Assembly: GCF_003977685.1 (NCBI RefSeq)
Contig: NZ_RYZH01000008.1
Coordinates: 62,001 to 126,000 of the forward strand
From: Tautonia sociabilis
GTDB lineage: Bacteria > Planctomycetota > Planctomycetia > Isosphaerales > Isosphaeraceae
DNA: 64,000 nucleotides
Direction: 5' to 3'
Every line of letters begins with the position of its first letter. The first letter of the stretch is position 1. Below the pieces are notes generated by a model. It was given only the letters and a program-made list of their open reading frames with translations. It made no database searches and was not told the DNA's origin. A program made the translations under genes and the position numbers. Shown piece by piece: positions 2,410 to 23,642 of this stretch.

Positions 2410-5343
2410 TCAGCGTTCCGAGGCCGGTTCGACGGCCTCCCGGAACTCGACGATCCGATCGGCGGCGAGGCCCGCATGCCGCTCGACGGCTCCGGAGGGC
2501 CATCGGATCTCCAGTTCGTCCACTTGTTCGGCCGCTCCCAGGCCGAAGTGGAGCCGGGGGTCCGAGGCCGACAGGTAGCTCGTCCCGGCCGAGAGCACCC
2601 GGGTCATCGACCGCCCGCCGGCCCGACACGTCACCCGAGCCCCGACCGGCGTCGGCCCGCTCGACGAGCCGACCAGCCGCACGCCGAGCCAGTGGCCGGC
2701 GCCGGGGGAGACGTTGCGGAGCAGGCTCGCCGGTGCGTCCCGGTGGACGACGACCAGGTCGACCCGGCCGTCGTTGTCCAGGTCGCCACCGGCCGCCCCC
2801 CGACCGACGACCGGCCGACGGAAGTACGGGCCGACTTCCCCGGGGGAGGCCGTCTCGAACCGGCCCCTCCCGAGGCCCGAATACCAGCGCGGGGGCTGGG
2901 CCATCGGCTGGCCGATCCCAGGCTGGTCGTCCACATGCCCGTTGGCGACGAACAGGTCGAGCGCCCCGTCGTTCTCGCCGTCCAGCGCCACCGCCCCGAA
3001 CCCGGTGACCGCCAGGCTCGGCCCTTCCAGGCCCGATCCGCTGGTCGCGTCGAAGAACAACCCGTTACCGAGGTTCCGCAGCAGCGTGTCCGGCTCGTTG
3101 CGGAAGTTCGTGTGGTAGAGGTCGATCCGGCCGTCGCCGTCCAGGTCGTCGGCGATCACTCCCATGCTGGCCGTCGCCCGGCCGTCGCCGTCGAAGGCGG
3201 CGCCGGCGGCCACGCCCTGCTCCTCGAACCGCAGACCGCCCCGGTTCAGGAACAGAAAGTCGGCCTCGGCGTCGTTGGCAATGAACAGGTCGAGCGTCCC
3301 GTCCTCGTCCGCGTCCACGATCGCCAGGCCCAGCCCCCGGCCCGGCCGGTCGAGCCCGGCCTCTCGGGAGACGTCGGTGAAGGTGCCGTCTCCGTTGTTG
3401 CGGAAGAGCAGGTCCTCCTGCGCCGGGAACCGGCCGGGGGGGCAGTGGATCGGCTCGCCGGAGGGGTCCGAGCACGGCGGGGCGGTCGCCGGGTCGGCCT
3501 CCACATAGGTTACGACCACAAGATCCAGGTCGCCGTCGCCGTCGAGGTCCGCGAAGCCGCTCGCCGTGCTCCAGCGATCGGAGGCCACCCCGGCCGACCC
3601 GGTGACGTCGGCGAACGTCCCATCCCCGTTGTTCCGGTAGAGCACCGTCGCGCCGAACCCGGTGACGAACAGGTCGTCGTCGCCGTCGCCGTCGTAGTCG
3701 CCGACGGCGCAGCCCATGCCGTAGCCCCGTCCCCCGACGCCGGCCCGATCGGTCACGTCCTCGAACGTGCCGTCCCCCCGGTTGCGGAACAGCCGGTTCG
3801 GGGCCGGCGGGTCGTCCGGGTCGACCGGCAGGGGGCAGCCGTTGACGAAATAGACGTCGAGCCAGCCGTCGCCGTCCGAGTCGATCAGGCCGACGCCGCC
3901 TCCCATCGTGTCGGCGATGAACAGGTCGCCGGCCTCCCCCGGGTCGTAGCGGAAGACCAGCCCCCGGGAGGCCGCCTCGTCCTCGAACCGGGCCCGGACC
4001 GGGCCCGAGGGCGATCGTTCCGCGACACCGGCCGTCGCGACGCCCCCCGACGGCGTCCCGGCCGCGTTCCGGAGCCTCGGGGGGGCGACCGGCTCGAACG
4101 CCGCCTCCGCCAGCCGGGCAATTCCCTGCTGGGAGGCGCGGTCGAGCGGGTCGAGCCGGGCGGCCTGCTCGAACCACCGACGCGCCAAGGCCGGCATCCC
4201 CGACTCCTCGCAGAGCCTCCCCAGAACCAGGCACTCCCCGGCGCCGTCCAGGCCCGAGAGGGCGCCGTTGATGGCGGCCTTGAGCCGATCGGTCCGGTCC
4301 CGGATCCCTTCGGCCCGCTCCAGGATCGGCCCGGCCTCATCGGCTCGGCCGGCCTCGGCCAGCGCCCGGCCGAGCCGGTAATGGGCCTGGAGGTGGCCCG
4401 GGTCGGCGGCCACGGCCTGCCGCCAGTGATCGATCGCCTCGTCCTCCCGGCCGAGGGCCCGGCTCGCCTGGCCGAGGAGCAGCCACCAGCGCGCCCGGTC
4501 GGCGGGGAGGGCGGGCATCGGGCCCAGCGCCTCCTCGACCCGATCCGCCCTCCCGGTCGCGGCGTAGCAGGCCGCCAGCGCCAGGCGGACGTCCGGGTCG
4601 TTCTCGATCGCGAGCCGGGCGAACTCCAGGTCGGCCACGGCCTCGGCCGGCGTTCCCAGCTCGAATCGGATCAGCCCGCGGGCCCGACGCAGCCAGGGGT
4701 CGTCCGGCGACCGCTCCAGGAACGGCCGGAGCCGGTCGAGGAGCTGTTCCCCCTCGCCGCCGAGGTCCCGGAACTGCTCGGCCTGCCGGCCCTCCAGCGC
4801 CAGGCCGGTCAGCGTGACGAGGTGCCTCGGGTCGCCGGTCAGCCGGTCCAGCTCCCGGAGCAGCCGGCACGCCTCCTCGGCCCTCCGCTGGACGAACATC
4901 AGCGAGAGCAGCCGCACCCTCGGCTCGATCGCCCCCGGCTCCCGGCCGATCGCCTCCCGGTAGGCCCGCTCCGCCTCGGCCCCGTCGTGCCGATTGGCCG
5001 CCAGCTCGCCGAGCAGGAACTGTGCCCGGGCCCACGCCGGGCTCGATTCCCCCACCCGGGCCAGCTCCTCCCGGGCCTCCTCCTCCCGGTCGAGGGCTCC
5101 GAGCACGGCCCCCCACTGGAGCCGAGCCCGGTCGTCGTCCGGATGCCGGACGAGCCACCGGGAGAGCCCCGCCTCGGCCTCCTCCCACCGGCGATCCTCC
5201 AGCGCCCGCTCGATCCTCCGCCACCGCTGCTCGTCCGACGGCGACGCCACCCAGGCCACCAGCCCGGCCAGCCCGGCCGCCGCCGCCAGCCCGATCCCCA
5301 GCCATCGGCCGCGACGGTCCCCGGTCTGACGGTCCCCTCCCAT
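2410..5343 (-). CDS. TPR, FG-GAP/VCBS repeat and ASPIC-UnbV (CRTAC1-type) protein
   Basis: A 977-residue protein. Residues about 15-33 form one hydrophobic anchor (WLGIGLAAAAGLAGLVAWVA). Residues about 35-400 are Arg/Glu/Leu-rich helical repeats of TPR type, for example 'HYRLGRALAEAGRADEAG'. From about residue 440 a beta-propeller begins, with many calcium-binding FG-GAP/VCBS loops of the form DxDGDGxxD ('DSDGDGWLDVYF', 'DLDGDGDLDLVV'). The C-terminus ('VGARVTCRAGG', 'FGLGAAEQVDELEIRWPSG') is the ASPIC/UnbV domain found in CRTAC1-like proteins. It is predicted to be membrane-anchored with an extracytoplasmic propeller. The family is common in Planctomycetota and Acidobacteriota, with no known enzymatic activity. 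It lies 194 bases downstream of the GT39-AsmA gene on the same strand, so the two could be co-transcribed. Confidence 0.93.
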   Translation of the reverse strand: MGGDRQTGDRRGRWLGIGLAAAAGLAGLVAWVASPSDEQRWRRIERALEDRRWEEAEAGLSRWLVRHPDDDRARLQWGAVLGALDREEEAREELARVGESSPAWARAQFLLGELAANRHDGAEAERAYREAIGREPGAIEPRVRLLSLMFVQRRAEEACRLLRELDRLTGDPRHLVTLTGLALEGRQAEQFRDLGGEGEQLLDRLRPFLERSPDDPWLRRARGLIRFELGTPAEAVADLEFARLAIENDPDVRLALAACYAATGRADRVEEALGPMPALPADRARWWLLLGQASRALGREDEAIDHWRQAVAADPGHLQAHYRLGRALAEAGRADEAGPILERAEGIRDRTDRLKAAINGALSGLDGAGECLVLGRLCEESGMPALARRWFEQAARLDPLDRASQQGIARLAEAAFEPVAPPRLRNAAGTPSGGVATAGVAERSPSGPVRARFEDEAASRGLVFRYDPGEAGDLFIADTMGGGVGLIDSDGDGWLDVYFVNGCPLPVDPDDPPAPNRLFRNRGDGTFEDVTDRAGVGGRGYGMGCAVGDYDGDGDDDLFVTGFGATVLYRNNGDGTFADVTGSAGVASDRWSTASGFADLDGDGDLDLVVVTYVEADPATAPPCSDPSGEPIHCPPGRFPAQEDLLFRNNGDGTFTDVSREAGLDRPGRGLGLAIVDADEDGTLDLFIANDAEADFLFLNRGGLRFEEQGVAAGAAFDGDGRATASMGVIADDLDGDGRIDLYHTNFRNEPDTLLRNLGNGLFFDATSGSGLEGPSLAVTGFGAVALDGENDGALDLFVANGHVDDQPGIGQPMAQPPRWYSGLGRGRFETASPGEVGPYFRRPVVGRGAAGGDLDNDGRVDLVVVHRDAPASLLRNVSPGAGHWLGVRLVGSSSGPTPVGARVTCRAGGRSMTRVLSAGTSYLSASDPRLHFGLGAAEQVDELEIRWPSGAVERHAGLAADRIVEFREAVEPASER

Positions 5344-14929: not shown

Positions 14930-15853
14930 TCACTCGGTCTCCGTCCCGGGTCGGTAGCCGGTCAGGGTGGTTTCGATCCGGTAGAGGGAGACGCCGGCGG
15001 TGATGTAGAGCGTGGAGTCGTCGGGGCCGGCGAACTCGACGTTGGTGGGGTTCTCGGGGACGGCGATGAAGTCGACCGGGGTGCCGTCCGGCTGGTAGAC
15101 GTAAACGCCGCCGAGCGGGCCGGCGCCGGCGGTGGCGACGACCAGGCCGTCGGTGGTGATCGTCATGCCGTCGATGCCTCGGCCGGTGCCGAAGTCCTTG
15201 ATGACCCTCGGATTGGAGACGGCGCCGGTGGCGGGGTCGAGGTCCAGCCGGAGCAGGACCTTGCGCTCGGGGCCGTTGTCGGAGACGTACAGGGTGGTGC
15301 CGTCGGGGCTGACGACCAGGCCGTTGGGCTTCTTCGCGGTCGTCTCCAGCCGGGTGACGGTGCCGTCGGGGTCGATCCGGTAGACGGACTCGGTGTCGAG
15401 CTCCCGGAGCTCGTCGCCGACGTAGCGGGGGTCGGAGACATAAACGCGCCCCTGGCGGTCGAGGGCGACGTCGTTCGGGCTGTTGAAACGCTTCCCCTGG
15501 AAGGAATCGGCCAGGGTGCGAACCGTGCCGTCGGCCTCGGTGATCGACACCCGGCGGTTGCCGCCGGTGTTGGCTCCCTCGGCGGCGATGAGAAGGCCGT
15601 CGGGGGTGACGATCAGGCCGTTGGAGCGCCCGCTGGGGGAGCGGAAGACGGTCACGGCCCCCGTCTCGGGGTCGAACCGCAGGATGCGGTTGCCGATGTC
15701 CGAGAACAGGATGGCGCCGTCGGGAGCCCGAACGGCCCCCTCGGTGAACTCCCCCTCGGACCAGAGCACCTCCAGGGTCTCCCCCGGCTTCACCACGCCG
15801 GACGAGGGCGGGACGGGGGGGATCAGCAGGGCGGAAAGGGCGAGGGAGAGCAT
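14930..15853 (-). CDS. SMP-30/gluconolactonase/LRE family protein (secreted)
   Basis: A 307-residue protein. The first 15 residues (MLSLALSALLIPPVP) are a short hydrophobic signal, so export is likely. The rest is a six-bladed beta-propeller of SMP-30 type: 'SEGEFTEGAVRAPDGAILFSD', 'GRSNGLIVTPDGLLIAAEG', 'FNSPNDVALDRQGRVYVSDP', 'KKPNGLVVSPDGTTLYVSD' and 'IDGMTITTDGLVV'. The Glu of 'FTEGAV', the Asn of 'SPNDVA' and the Asp of 'GIDGMT' are the expected metal ligands. The family includes lactonases acting on sugar or other lactones; planctomycetes carry many exported versions with unknown substrate. It is a single gene, convergent with the methyltransferase. Confidence 0.9.
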   Translation of the reverse strand: MLSLALSALLIPPVPPSSGVVKPGETLEVLWSEGEFTEGAVRAPDGAILFSDIGNRILRFDPETGAVTVFRSPSGRSNGLIVTPDGLLIAAEGANTGGNRRVSITEADGTVRTLADSFQGKRFNSPNDVALDRQGRVYVSDPRYVGDELRELDTESVYRIDPDGTVTRLETTAKKPNGLVVSPDGTTLYVSDNGPERKVLLRLDLDPATGAVSNPRVIKDFGTGRGIDGMTITTDGLVVATAGAGPLGGVYVYQPDGTPVDFIAVPENPTNVEFAGPDDSTLYITAGVSLYRIETTLTGYRPGTETE

Positions 15854-20586: not shown

Positions 20587-21231
20587 ATGGAACGCGAATC
20601 GGAGCGATTCAAGCCCGGCGCGAGCATGAATGACCCAGGTCCGGGCCTCCCGGTCGGGCCGCTCTCCCGGTGGGCCCGCCTGCGGCTGCTGGAGGAGGCG
20701 AGGGGAGCGATGGCGGCCGCGGTCGCCGGCGGCGGGGTGGTCGAGGTGCCGGGGCCAACCGGCAAGCCGGAGCTGGACCGGCCTCGGGCGGCGTTCGTGA
20801 CGCTCCGGCGGCGGGACTCCGGGGCCTTGCGCGGCTGCCGGGGGGAGGCGGTGGCCCGGAGGCCCCTGGTGGCCTCGGTCGCGGCCGGGGCGATCGGCGC
20901 CGCGACCGACGACCCGAGGTTCCGGCCCGTCTCGACCGACGAGCTGCGGCTGCTCCGGGTCGAGATCAGCGTCCTGACCCCCCCTCGGCCGATCTCCCCG
21001 GATCGGATCGAGCTGGGAAGGCATGGCCTGATGATCGTCCGGGGACGGACCCGGGGCCTGCTGCTGCCGCAGGTGCCCGGTCACCACGGGTTCGACCGGC
21101 TCGCCTTCCTGGAGGCCATCTGCCGCAAGGCGGGCCTGCCTCCCGGCTCCTGGCGGAACGATCCCGAGGTGATGCTCTTGGCGTTCGAGGCGGAGGTCTG
21201 GGGCGAGGAAAACGCCGACAACTCCGGATAA
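20587..21231 (+). CDS. amrA: AmmeMemoRadiSam system protein A (AMMECR1 domain)
   Basis: A 214-residue protein from 20587 (a second in-frame ATG lies at 20626; neither has a strong ribosome-binding site). After a short N-terminal tail the AMMECR1 fold is recognisable: 'AAFVTLRRRDSGALRGCRGE' containing the conserved LRGC(I/R)G block, 'DDPRFRPVSTDELRLLRVEISVLTPP', and 'ELGRHGLMIVRGRTRGLLLPQVP'. AMMECR1-type proteins usually occur with a Memo-like AmrB and a radical SAM AmrS in the three-part AmmeMemoRadiSam system. Biochemical function is unresolved; the human homologue is a disease gene. Neither partner is in this window, so they must lie elsewhere or be absent. It is divergent from the alpha/beta hydrolase and 178 bases upstream of the candidate selenoprotein. 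Confidence 0.9.
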   Translation: MERESERFKPGASMNDPGPGLPVGPLSRWARLRLLEEARGAMAAAVAGGGVVEVPGPTGKPELDRPRAAFVTLRRRDSGALRGCRGEAVARRPLVASVAAGAIGAATDDPRFRPVSTDELRLLRVEISVLTPPRPISPDRIELGRHGLMIVRGRTRGLLLPQVPGHHGFDRLAFLEAICRKAGLPPGSWRNDPEVMLLAFEAEVWGEENADNSG

Positions 21232-21409
21232 GGCCAGGAGGCCGGACCGGTCCTCCCCGCCCCGGACGGCGCGGCGCGCGGCGAGTCCGGCGCGCCGGCG
21301 CGATCCGCGCTTGACGATCGCGGACCGGCGGCGGAGGATGATGCGTGAAGTCGAGCGACCGAGCGGCGGGGGCGGAGGCCCTCGACCTCGACCGAAGGAG
21401 TCCGTTTCC

Positions 21410-21982
21410 ATGAGATTGCGATCGAAACACACCCTGGCGCTGGCCGGGCTGGTCGTCGCCGCAACGGCGACGGCGGCCGTGCTACCAGGCCAGGGGCTCG
21501 ATTCCGGGCCGAAGCTCGGAACGGTCGTGGATGCCTTCGACGTCTACGACGTCACCGGCCCGAACCAGGGCCGAGAGCTCTGTTATCGCTGAGCGTACGG
21601 CGCGAGCCCGGTCGTCTGCATTTTCACGCGGACGACGAGCGGGCCCTTGACCGGTCTGGTCAAGGCCGTCGACGAGCAGATCGAGAAGAATCCGGACCTG
21701 AAGGCCTTCGTTGTCCGCCTGACGGACACCGACAGCGAGGCCGAGGTCGTCAAGGCGCTGCGCGGCCTGGCGACCGAGTGCGGCATTGAAAACGTGCCGC
21801 TGACCCTGCTGGAGAATCCGGCAGGCCCGCCGTCCTACCAGATCGCCGAGGACGCGGAAGTCACCGTCCTAATGTGGCGCTACACCGAGCTGGAAGCCAA
21901 GCACGCGTTCGCCGCTGGCGAGCTCGGCGAGGATGACATCGCTCGCATTCTCGCCGACCTGCCGAAGATCCTGGGCGACTGA
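21410..21982 (+). CDS. Thioredoxin-like exported protein with in-frame TGA: candidate selenoprotein (CxxU)
   Basis: Read through one TGA (21590-21592), this is a 190-codon frame that stays in phase from ATG 21410 to the stop at 21980-21982. AAGGAG precedes the ATG. Residues 1-30 are a signal peptide or anchor (RSKHTLALAGLVVAATATAA). The redox site reads 'GPNQGRELCYR' then TGA then 'AYGASPVVCIF', so the TGA (codon 61) sits exactly three residues after Cys 58, where the second Cys of a CxxC would be. After it come 'KNPDLKAFVVRLTD', 'VPLTLLENPAGPPSYQIAED' with a cis-Pro-like VPLT, and 'VTVLMWRYTEL', a normal thioredoxin-like fold with no further disruption. From memory, planctomycete relatives have CYRC here. 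Readings: selenocysteine at 61 (favoured), or a nonsense mutation. No sel genes are in this window. Confidence 0.7.
21606..21644 (+). promoter_or_regulatory. SECIS-like hairpin just downstream of the in-frame TGA
   Basis: Thirteen bases after the TGA the sequence folds on paper as GCCCG (21606-21610) plus GTCGTCTGC (21611-21619), paired with GCGGACGAC (21628-21636) and CGGGC (21640-21644), with GAG (21637-21639) bulged and loop ATTTTCAC. One T-G wobble is included. Bacterial SECIS elements are hairpins in this position with a G near the 5' side of the loop. If the top three pairs open, the loop is 14 bases with G at its second position (21618), which fits the rule as I recall it; as a closed stem, the loop lacks that G. 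Supportive, not proof. Confidence 0.45.
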
Positions 21983-22000
21983 CGCCGCCGCGTGATCGAT

Positions 22001-22030
22001 GCCGGGCCCCTCGACGTCGGGGGGCCCGGC
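22001..22030 (+). terminator. Hairpin after the candidate selenoprotein gene
   Basis: GCCGGGCCCC (22001-22010) and GGGGCCCGGC (22021-22030) form a perfect 10-bp stem with a 10-base loop, 18 bases after the stop at 21982. A weakly T-rich stretch (CGCTCGTTCCTCG) follows. Likely intrinsic terminator. Its place right after the distal stop, not after the TGA at 21592, agrees with the gene extending to 21982. Confidence 0.6.
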
Positions 22031-22104
22031 CGCTCGTTCCTCGATGATCCCCTGTCACCCCGGGCCCGCCCTCTCCCGCCGTCGGGCGCTCGACTTCACC
22101 CGGG

Positions 22105-22152
22105 AAACAAACGCCCCTCGCGAGCCAGACCGGCCCGCGGGGGCGTTCGTTT
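22105..22152. repeat. Inverted repeat, 13-bp arms
   Basis: AAACAAACGCCCC (22105-22117) and GGGGCGTTCGTTT (22140-22152) pair over 13 positions with one mismatch, enclosing 22 bases. It lies between the candidate selenoprotein and the PDZ remnant on the opposite strand, and may be a terminator for leftward transcripts reading through the remnant. Confidence 0.4.
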
Positions 22153-23069: not shown

Positions 23070-23210
23070 CGATCGTTCCTCCCGGTCGGTGAGGGTGCGG
23101 GGCGTCTTTCCCGATTGTAGGCGATGCGCGTCCGGGAGGGGGGCCTTGGGGCCTTCCGGCGTGGCGAGGGATCCACATCGGTGGGGGGAATTCGACTGGA
23201 GTCGCAGGAG

Positions 23211-23345
23211 GGAAGAGAACCAGAGGGAAGAGAACCAGAGGGAAGAGAACCAGAGGGAAGAGAACCAGAGGGAAGAGAACCAGAGGGAAGAGAACCAGAG
23301 GGAAGAGAACCAGAGGGAAGAGAACCAGAGGGAGGAGAAGCGGAG
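23211..23345. repeat. 15-bp tandem repeat (minisatellite)
   Basis: The unit GGAAGAGAACCAGAG is repeated eight times without error from 23211 to 23330, followed by a degenerate ninth unit (23331-23345). The unit is purine-rich on the + strand and contrasts with its GC-rich surroundings. Because 15 is a multiple of three, every frame through it stays open; it would read as REENQ/EGREP-type repeats on + and LWFSS-type on -, but no gene with a ribosome-binding site crosses it. It lies in the spacer between the divergent genes 22575-23069 and 23643-24344. Confidence 0.95.
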
Positions 23346-23642
23346 GGAAGCCCGGAACCGAGAGGGCCGCGGCGATCCGCGCCAGGGGGACGACCGGAAC
23401 ACTGGCCGCTCCCCGCCGCATTGGTGCCGGGGCGACTCCGTGGCAACCCACACAATAGGCACAACCGGAACGCGGCGAGGTTGGGGCGTCCTTGGGCCTG
23501 GGGGCGGGGGAGGGCGCGTTCCGAAGAATCGGGGGAAGAGAAGGCCGGGCCCGCCGGCATCGGGCGATGCGCCGCAGGATGCGGACGCGGACGCGAGGCG
23601 GGCCGAGCGAGGCCGATCGATCGTCGGTCAGGAGGTGCGACG

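Follow-up and report, generated by a model that had tools for sequence, protein, structure and literature searches.

The consensus bacterial selenocysteine insertion sequence (bSECIS), as given in PMC13188914, has a G in the first two positions of the apical loop followed by G or U, a distance of 16–37 nucleotides (nt) between the UGA and the loop, and a free energy no higher than −7.5 kcal/mol; the same source notes bacterial elements that depart from it. For Escherichia coli, PMC8659212 describes SelB as relying on a loop G-U together with a bulged U. According to PMC4807772, two algal planctomycetes have selenoproteins, and genes for selenocysteine (Sec) occur in Gemmata obscuriglobus and Isosphaera pallida. 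Here we describe a gene in a 64,000-nt stretch of Tautonia sociabilis (contig NZ_RYZH01000008.1, positions 62,001 to 126,000; hereafter the window) whose internal UGA is, from its sequence and that of its relatives, very probably read as Sec in an exported redox protein. Two hairpins, termed SL1 and SL2, follow this codon, and the second probably directs Sec insertion there. The gene and its two redox codons are as follows.

21410..21982, + strand: putative CxxU redoxin-like selenoprotein gene, from the ATG to the distal TGA, 190 residues including Sec61
21581..21583, + strand: codon of Cys58, which opens the CxxU and is invariant in family alignments A1 and A2
21590..21592, + strand: TGA, very probably read as Sec61, opposite TGC or TGT in 60 of 98 family members and TGA in 38 of 98

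The initial annotation, made from the sequence alone, had described a single frame running from the ATG at 21410 through a TGA at 21590–21592 to a distal stop at 21980–21982, and this layout is correct, with the internal TGA at codon 61, 129 more codons and a second TGA as the distal stop. It had also placed the internal TGA at the position of a second redox Cys. Comparison of homologues at position 61 agreed with this, as the column holds either TGA or Cys in all 98 distinct members of the family (38 TGA, 43 TGC, 17 TGT). These members derive from 140 hits, retained when the match around the site covered some 90 residues or more, with identical copies dropped. The CxxU motif of the window protein is CYRU, and LCYRU or LCYRC is the motif in nearly all members. 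Relatives are found in 74 of 99 related genomes by protein search and, by profile search, in 327 of the 397 genomes covered within the class; scanning of named genomes gave 104 confirmed relatives, 80 of which were kept, and those carrying organism names are planctomycetes.

Conserved coding past the TGA, as first proposed, is borne out by the genus relatives, all three of which share the TGA at the Sec61 codon. Nonsynonymous divergence past the TGA roughly matches that of the preceding part or is lower, and it falls below synonymous divergence in every genus comparison made. The host assembly is a draft (6.76 Mb, 133 contigs, completeness 94.79%), which leaves some opening for a sequencing error or a pseudogene, the TGA being then a misread Cys codon or a true stop. 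Such an origin has a negligible chance of being correct: 38 distinct genes, including those of the three genus relatives, carry a TGA at this codon, and therefore an error in a single genome cannot explain the pattern, while selection past the TGA and the conserved RNA structure described below also speak against it. A general reassignment of TGA was ruled out, as 13 of the 38 TGA genes, the window gene included, carry a second, terminal TGA. Mapped on the tree of the 98 members, the TGA or Cys state changes at least five times, with at least three changes forced by well-supported branches.

The RNA immediately downstream of the TGA showed a structural signal, arranged in two consecutive hairpins.

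21606..21644, + strand: hairpin SL1, proposed structured spacer (folding, codon shuffles)
21645..21665, + strand: hairpin SL2, proposed SelB-binding SECIS hairpin (folding, conservation, codon shuffles, covariation)
21653..21657, + strand: apical loop of SL2, GGUCU, 60 nt past the UGA

The window RNA between 21593 and 21667 folds with −41.6 kcal/mol (z −3.96), a value as low as which was reached by none of 200 shuffles, and both SL2 (−12.5 kcal/mol) and SL1 (−24.7 kcal/mol) lie below the bSECIS limit of −7.5. SL2 corresponds to YTGRCCRGTYTGGTCAR without mismatch in all 38 TGA genes and in one of the 60 Cys genes. The latter (L044, also L161; G074 contig 2 near 22600) is a TGT member in a genome with SelA, and is likely a Sec gene turned Cys that kept its SL2 as a remnant, its position in the tree being unsure. 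Another Cys copy, which stands beside a TGA copy at L116, is two bases off the pattern. Synonymous choice within SL2 is frozen in the TGA genes, where same-residue pairs are all identical at +60, +63 and +69, and not in the Cys genes. Paired cells make up 98.0% of SL2, more than in any of 500 shuffles, and both the number of cells changed on both sides (6) and the covariation score exceed all 500 shuffles; these counts are not probabilities because the sequences are related. One T-A pair of SL2 is replaced by C-G in three genes (L116, L120 and L121), one side of the exchange costing a Lys to Arg substitution. When codons are shuffled with the protein kept constant, 36 of 38 TGA genes have a significant SL2 (p ≤ 0.05; mean z −2.56), as do 3 of 60 Cys genes (−0.28). 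The corresponding counts for SL1 are 27 of 38 (−2.44) and 13 of 60 (−0.73), and a downstream control region is significant in 2 of 38 TGA genes (+0.38). With RNAalifold, a 78-nt span of the 38 TGA genes yielded SL2, and a 66-nt span gave no structure with the TGA set or with the Cys set; an Rfam scan of 21380–22060 gave no SECIS and nothing near the gathering score.

The machinery needed for this decoding, which the initial annotation had proposed to look for, is complete in the host genome, where selA, selB, selD and a tRNA-Sec gene are all present. The tRNA-Sec gene scores 65.9 bits with anticodon tca; two other loci above the tRNA-Sec cut-off were assigned by ARAGORN to tRNA-Ser and tRNA-Leu. 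SelB, with its GTPase and winged-helix domains, adjoins SelA on host contig 38. SelD (357.4 bits) is itself a Sec form, with the motif CAGUAGK.

Host contig 39:92439-93377, − strand: SelD gene (L019), Sec form, with a hairpin apex like that of SL2

Among the matches listed, SelA is present in 37 of 39 genomes with a TGA member and in 26 of 98 Cys-only genomes (Fisher p 3.8e-14), SelA being counted at about E 1e-100 or better and Cys-only referring to those matches, so that such a genome may hold a further TGA member. Four Cys-only genomes with SelA-like hits at E 1e-75 to 1e-83 (G048, G071, G086 and G101) were scored as negative. Eight TGA genomes (G046, G049, G051, G059, G073, G085, G088 and G097), which came from the protein search alone, were left out of this test, and SelA is found in all eight. 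The association also holds outside the family of the host (18 of 18 TGA against 26 of 98 Cys-only genomes among the matches listed, p 1.8e-9); within it, taking SelA at E ≤ 1e-30, a TGA gene is seen in 20 of 31 SelA genomes and in 1 of the remaining 14 (p 3.6e-4). A suppressor tRNA reading the UGA as Cys or as some amino acid other than Sec would agree with the Cys found at the homologous position, and the search for UCA-anticodon tRNAs other than tRNA-Sec was not genome-wide. Still, the full Sec pathway, the co-occurrence of TGA genes with SelA, the SECIS-like RNA signal in the TGA genes and the 13 of these that also end in TGA make such a reading highly improbable.

Which of the two hairpins would act as the SECIS was judged from their loops. 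SL2 follows the loop G rule in 38 of 38 TGA genes (AGUUU in 29, AGUCU in 6, GGUCU in 3), and SL1 in one of 38. The hairpin of the host selD gene resembles SL2 in its apex closed by a purine-pyrimidine pair, the GU in its loop and a smaller hairpin in front, and differs from it in the position of the loop (GUU apex), which read from the fold lies some 33 nt past the UGA, inside the model range. Hairpins of this type could be seen, by reading of predicted folds, in 9 of 10 Sec-form selD genes. Given the loop rule and the likeness to the selD apex, SL2 is taken as the hairpin that would bind SelB, with SL1 as a structured spacer. The alternative is that SL1 is the working SECIS of the same selenoprotein, at an ordinary distance, and that SL2 has some other role, for instance in the speed of translation, the stability of the mRNA or the binding of a different factor. 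SL1 loops do lie 27–34 nt past the UGA, within 16–37 nt, and SL1 is stabler in TGA than in Cys genes; set against this, SL1 follows the loop G rule in one of 38 genes and has no common structure, and it is SL2 that has the G in every case, resembles the selD apex, is frozen in TGA genes only and is kept in divergent relatives though its distance shifts to 60 or 66 nt. We regard SL1 as an unlikely SECIS.

This persistence could be followed by searching genomes with the SL2 pattern alone. The pattern occurs in 138 of 397 genomes and the reversed pattern in 12 (row count). Of the 30 best-ranked loci, which are the top of a longer list made up mostly of one family, 26 hold a CxxU gene of the same kind with its TGA in frame and four do not (L204, L206, L207 and L208). 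Many of the CxxU relatives found in this way no longer have LCYRU, showing CLVU, CPVU, CQVU or CYVU in its place. Three further hits (L228, L229 and L237) are TGA genes of the family. SL2 starts at +57 in 22 of 29 distinct CxxU loci, at +60 in one and at +66 in six; therefore the distance between UGA and SL2 can shift while SL2 persists. SL1 is significant in 15 of these 29 loci (mean z −1.83).

A confident predicted model of the window protein shows an overall redoxin or thioredoxin-like fold, in line with the thioredoxin-like protein first proposed; its fold was compared by VIA-align, a comparison that rules out no other fold. In a profile alignment with 20 redoxins (a weak match, probability 32.6, E 4.7e-4) the CxxU falls before the central strand and TSGPL occupies the canonical motif place. 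The order of elements in the model agrees with a CxxU ahead of this strand, which weakly suggests that the pair may sit off the canonical thioredoxin site. The protein also appears to be exported, its N terminus being taken as signal-peptide-like because it is hydrophobic.

Several observations weigh against these assignments. The SL2 loop stands 60 nt past the UGA, outside 16–37 nt and at about twice the model distance, and it has the G-U described for E. coli without the bulged U. Two of five covariation measures for SL2 fail against shuffles (pairs with two-sided change, 53 of 500; pair types, 500 of 500). The SL1 signal is weaker than that of SL2, extends to the 13 Cys genes mentioned above, and corresponds to no common structure across the 38 TGA genes in the 78-nt RNAalifold run; an upstream control is itself significant in 9 of 37 TGA genes (mean z −0.48). 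Seven further SL2-pattern hits fall outside the family (L227, which lies in the host's own genome, L230-L234 and L238). A full SelA hit is missing in two TGA genomes, G015, where it is split in two, and G041, with none in an assembly 83% complete. Finally, the displaced position of the CxxU depends on a weak profile match.

Taken as a whole, the evidence is best explained, with high probability, by an exported redoxin-fold Cys-x-x-Sec selenoprotein in which SL2 is the SelB site and SL1 a spacer. In this scenario SelB carrying Sec-tRNASec would bind the SL2 loop, and folding of SL1 would take up the distance so that the loop could reach a ribosome stalled at codon 61. There Sec would be inserted, and the TGA at the gene end would terminate translation. 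Cys58 and Sec61 could then form a reversible selenenylsulfide, and the protein would be a thiol-disulfide or peroxide-type oxidoreductase acting outside the cytoplasm. The broader proposal of a bipartite planctomycete SECIS, with a SelB hairpin 60–69 nt past the UGA and a variable spacer hairpin, together with a Sec-containing redox pair in a novel position on the redoxin fold, is one we favour with moderate confidence.

The remaining features of the locus are listed below.

21395..21400, + strand: probable ribosome-binding site AAGGAG, 9 nt 5' of the ATG (read from the sequence)
21410..21499, + strand: signal-peptide-like N terminus, a hydrophobic stretch (block means of the predicted local distance difference test of 50, 52 and 62 over residues 1–30)
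21797..21799, + strand: codon of Pro130 within VPLT (residues 129–132), candidate cis-Pro of the fold, invariant in A1 and A2
22001..22030, + strand: 13-bp G+C-rich hairpin 3' of the distal stop, without a T tract

The last of these is what had been called a terminator: a strong hairpin after the distal stop is there, the T tract is absent and a terminator scan of 21230–22150 was empty. An AMMECR1 gene is the upstream neighbour, and further downstream there is a DUF6655 gene. No support for an operon or a conserved neighbourhood emerged when all open frames of 15–28 kb were compared with the retrieved loci, many of which have flanks of 1.5 kb only, the non-self matches being genus loci and single outside loci (L120; L133 and L052). 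A 15-bp tandem repeat (9.5 copies, 96% matches) with several frames open is found at window positions 23208–23350.

Some relatives show unusual arrangements. TGA genes adjoin in pairs in G002 (L160) and G003 (L025), and a TGA copy adjoins a Cys copy in G197 (L162) and in L116. A family gene near 5174 of a Fuerstiella sp. metagenome-assembled genome (L112) has, by reading, its TGA at the first Cys (LUYRC) and is without SL2; it may be an error, a dead gene or a UxxC form. In a remote relative (L240; G095 contig 1 near 15240-15647) CPLC replaces CYRC, and the domain is fused behind another that we take to resemble YceI. Redoxin (PF08534) matches with one internal TGA were also seen in G049 (contig 87:26400-26810 and contig 65:15952-16377), G005 (contig 70:17399-17800) and G004 (contig 225:2983-3390), and are possible further selenoproteins.

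These results add a selenoprotein family common in planctomycetes with the Sec pathway, whose members a standard reading truncates at the UGA, and suggest that searches using the standard distance rule undercount selenoproteins. The family offers 38 genes with a displaced, strongly conserved SelB-type loop, next to 60 Cys genes that can serve as controls, one of which has kept the loop; with this natural series, the way in which bacterial SelB gauges how far it is from the ribosome becomes open to direct test. Were the bipartite SECIS true, the reach of SelB would be set by space and not by nucleotide count, a group of selenoproteins would have been missed by programs assuming 16–37 nt, and a redox pair with Sec would occupy a new place on the redoxin fold.

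Sequence models did not assign the protein to a described group: the window protein reached no cut-off in Pfam and NCBIfam scans, nor did the relatives tried (five with NCBIfam, six with Pfam), and a search of PDB sequences with the family gave no match at E ≤ 1. An open-access literature search retrieved neither the family nor a bacterial SECIS displaced in this manner. The CxxU selenoproteins in Table 1 of PMC13188914, so far as that table could be consulted (SelW-like, AhpD-like, Trx7/PDZ and others), likewise have Sec second in CxxU and Cys homologues, and differ in that no NCBIfam model exceeds its cut-off with the window protein or five relatives; no entry among its 119 families or subfamilies fits by description, families defined by a cd domain only being outside the comparison. 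FetE, DsbE, ResA, Tpx and AhpE share the redoxin fold, with no Pfam sequence match to the window protein over cut-off; relative to them, the weak profile match places the CxxU seemingly before the central strand, with TSGPL at the canonical place. As for the RNA, SL2 resembles the bSECIS elements set out in PMC13188914 in being a coding-region hairpin past the UGA whose small loop fits the G rule given above, and differs from them in that this loop lies at 60 nt (66–69 in some relatives), behind another hairpin of about 40 nt.
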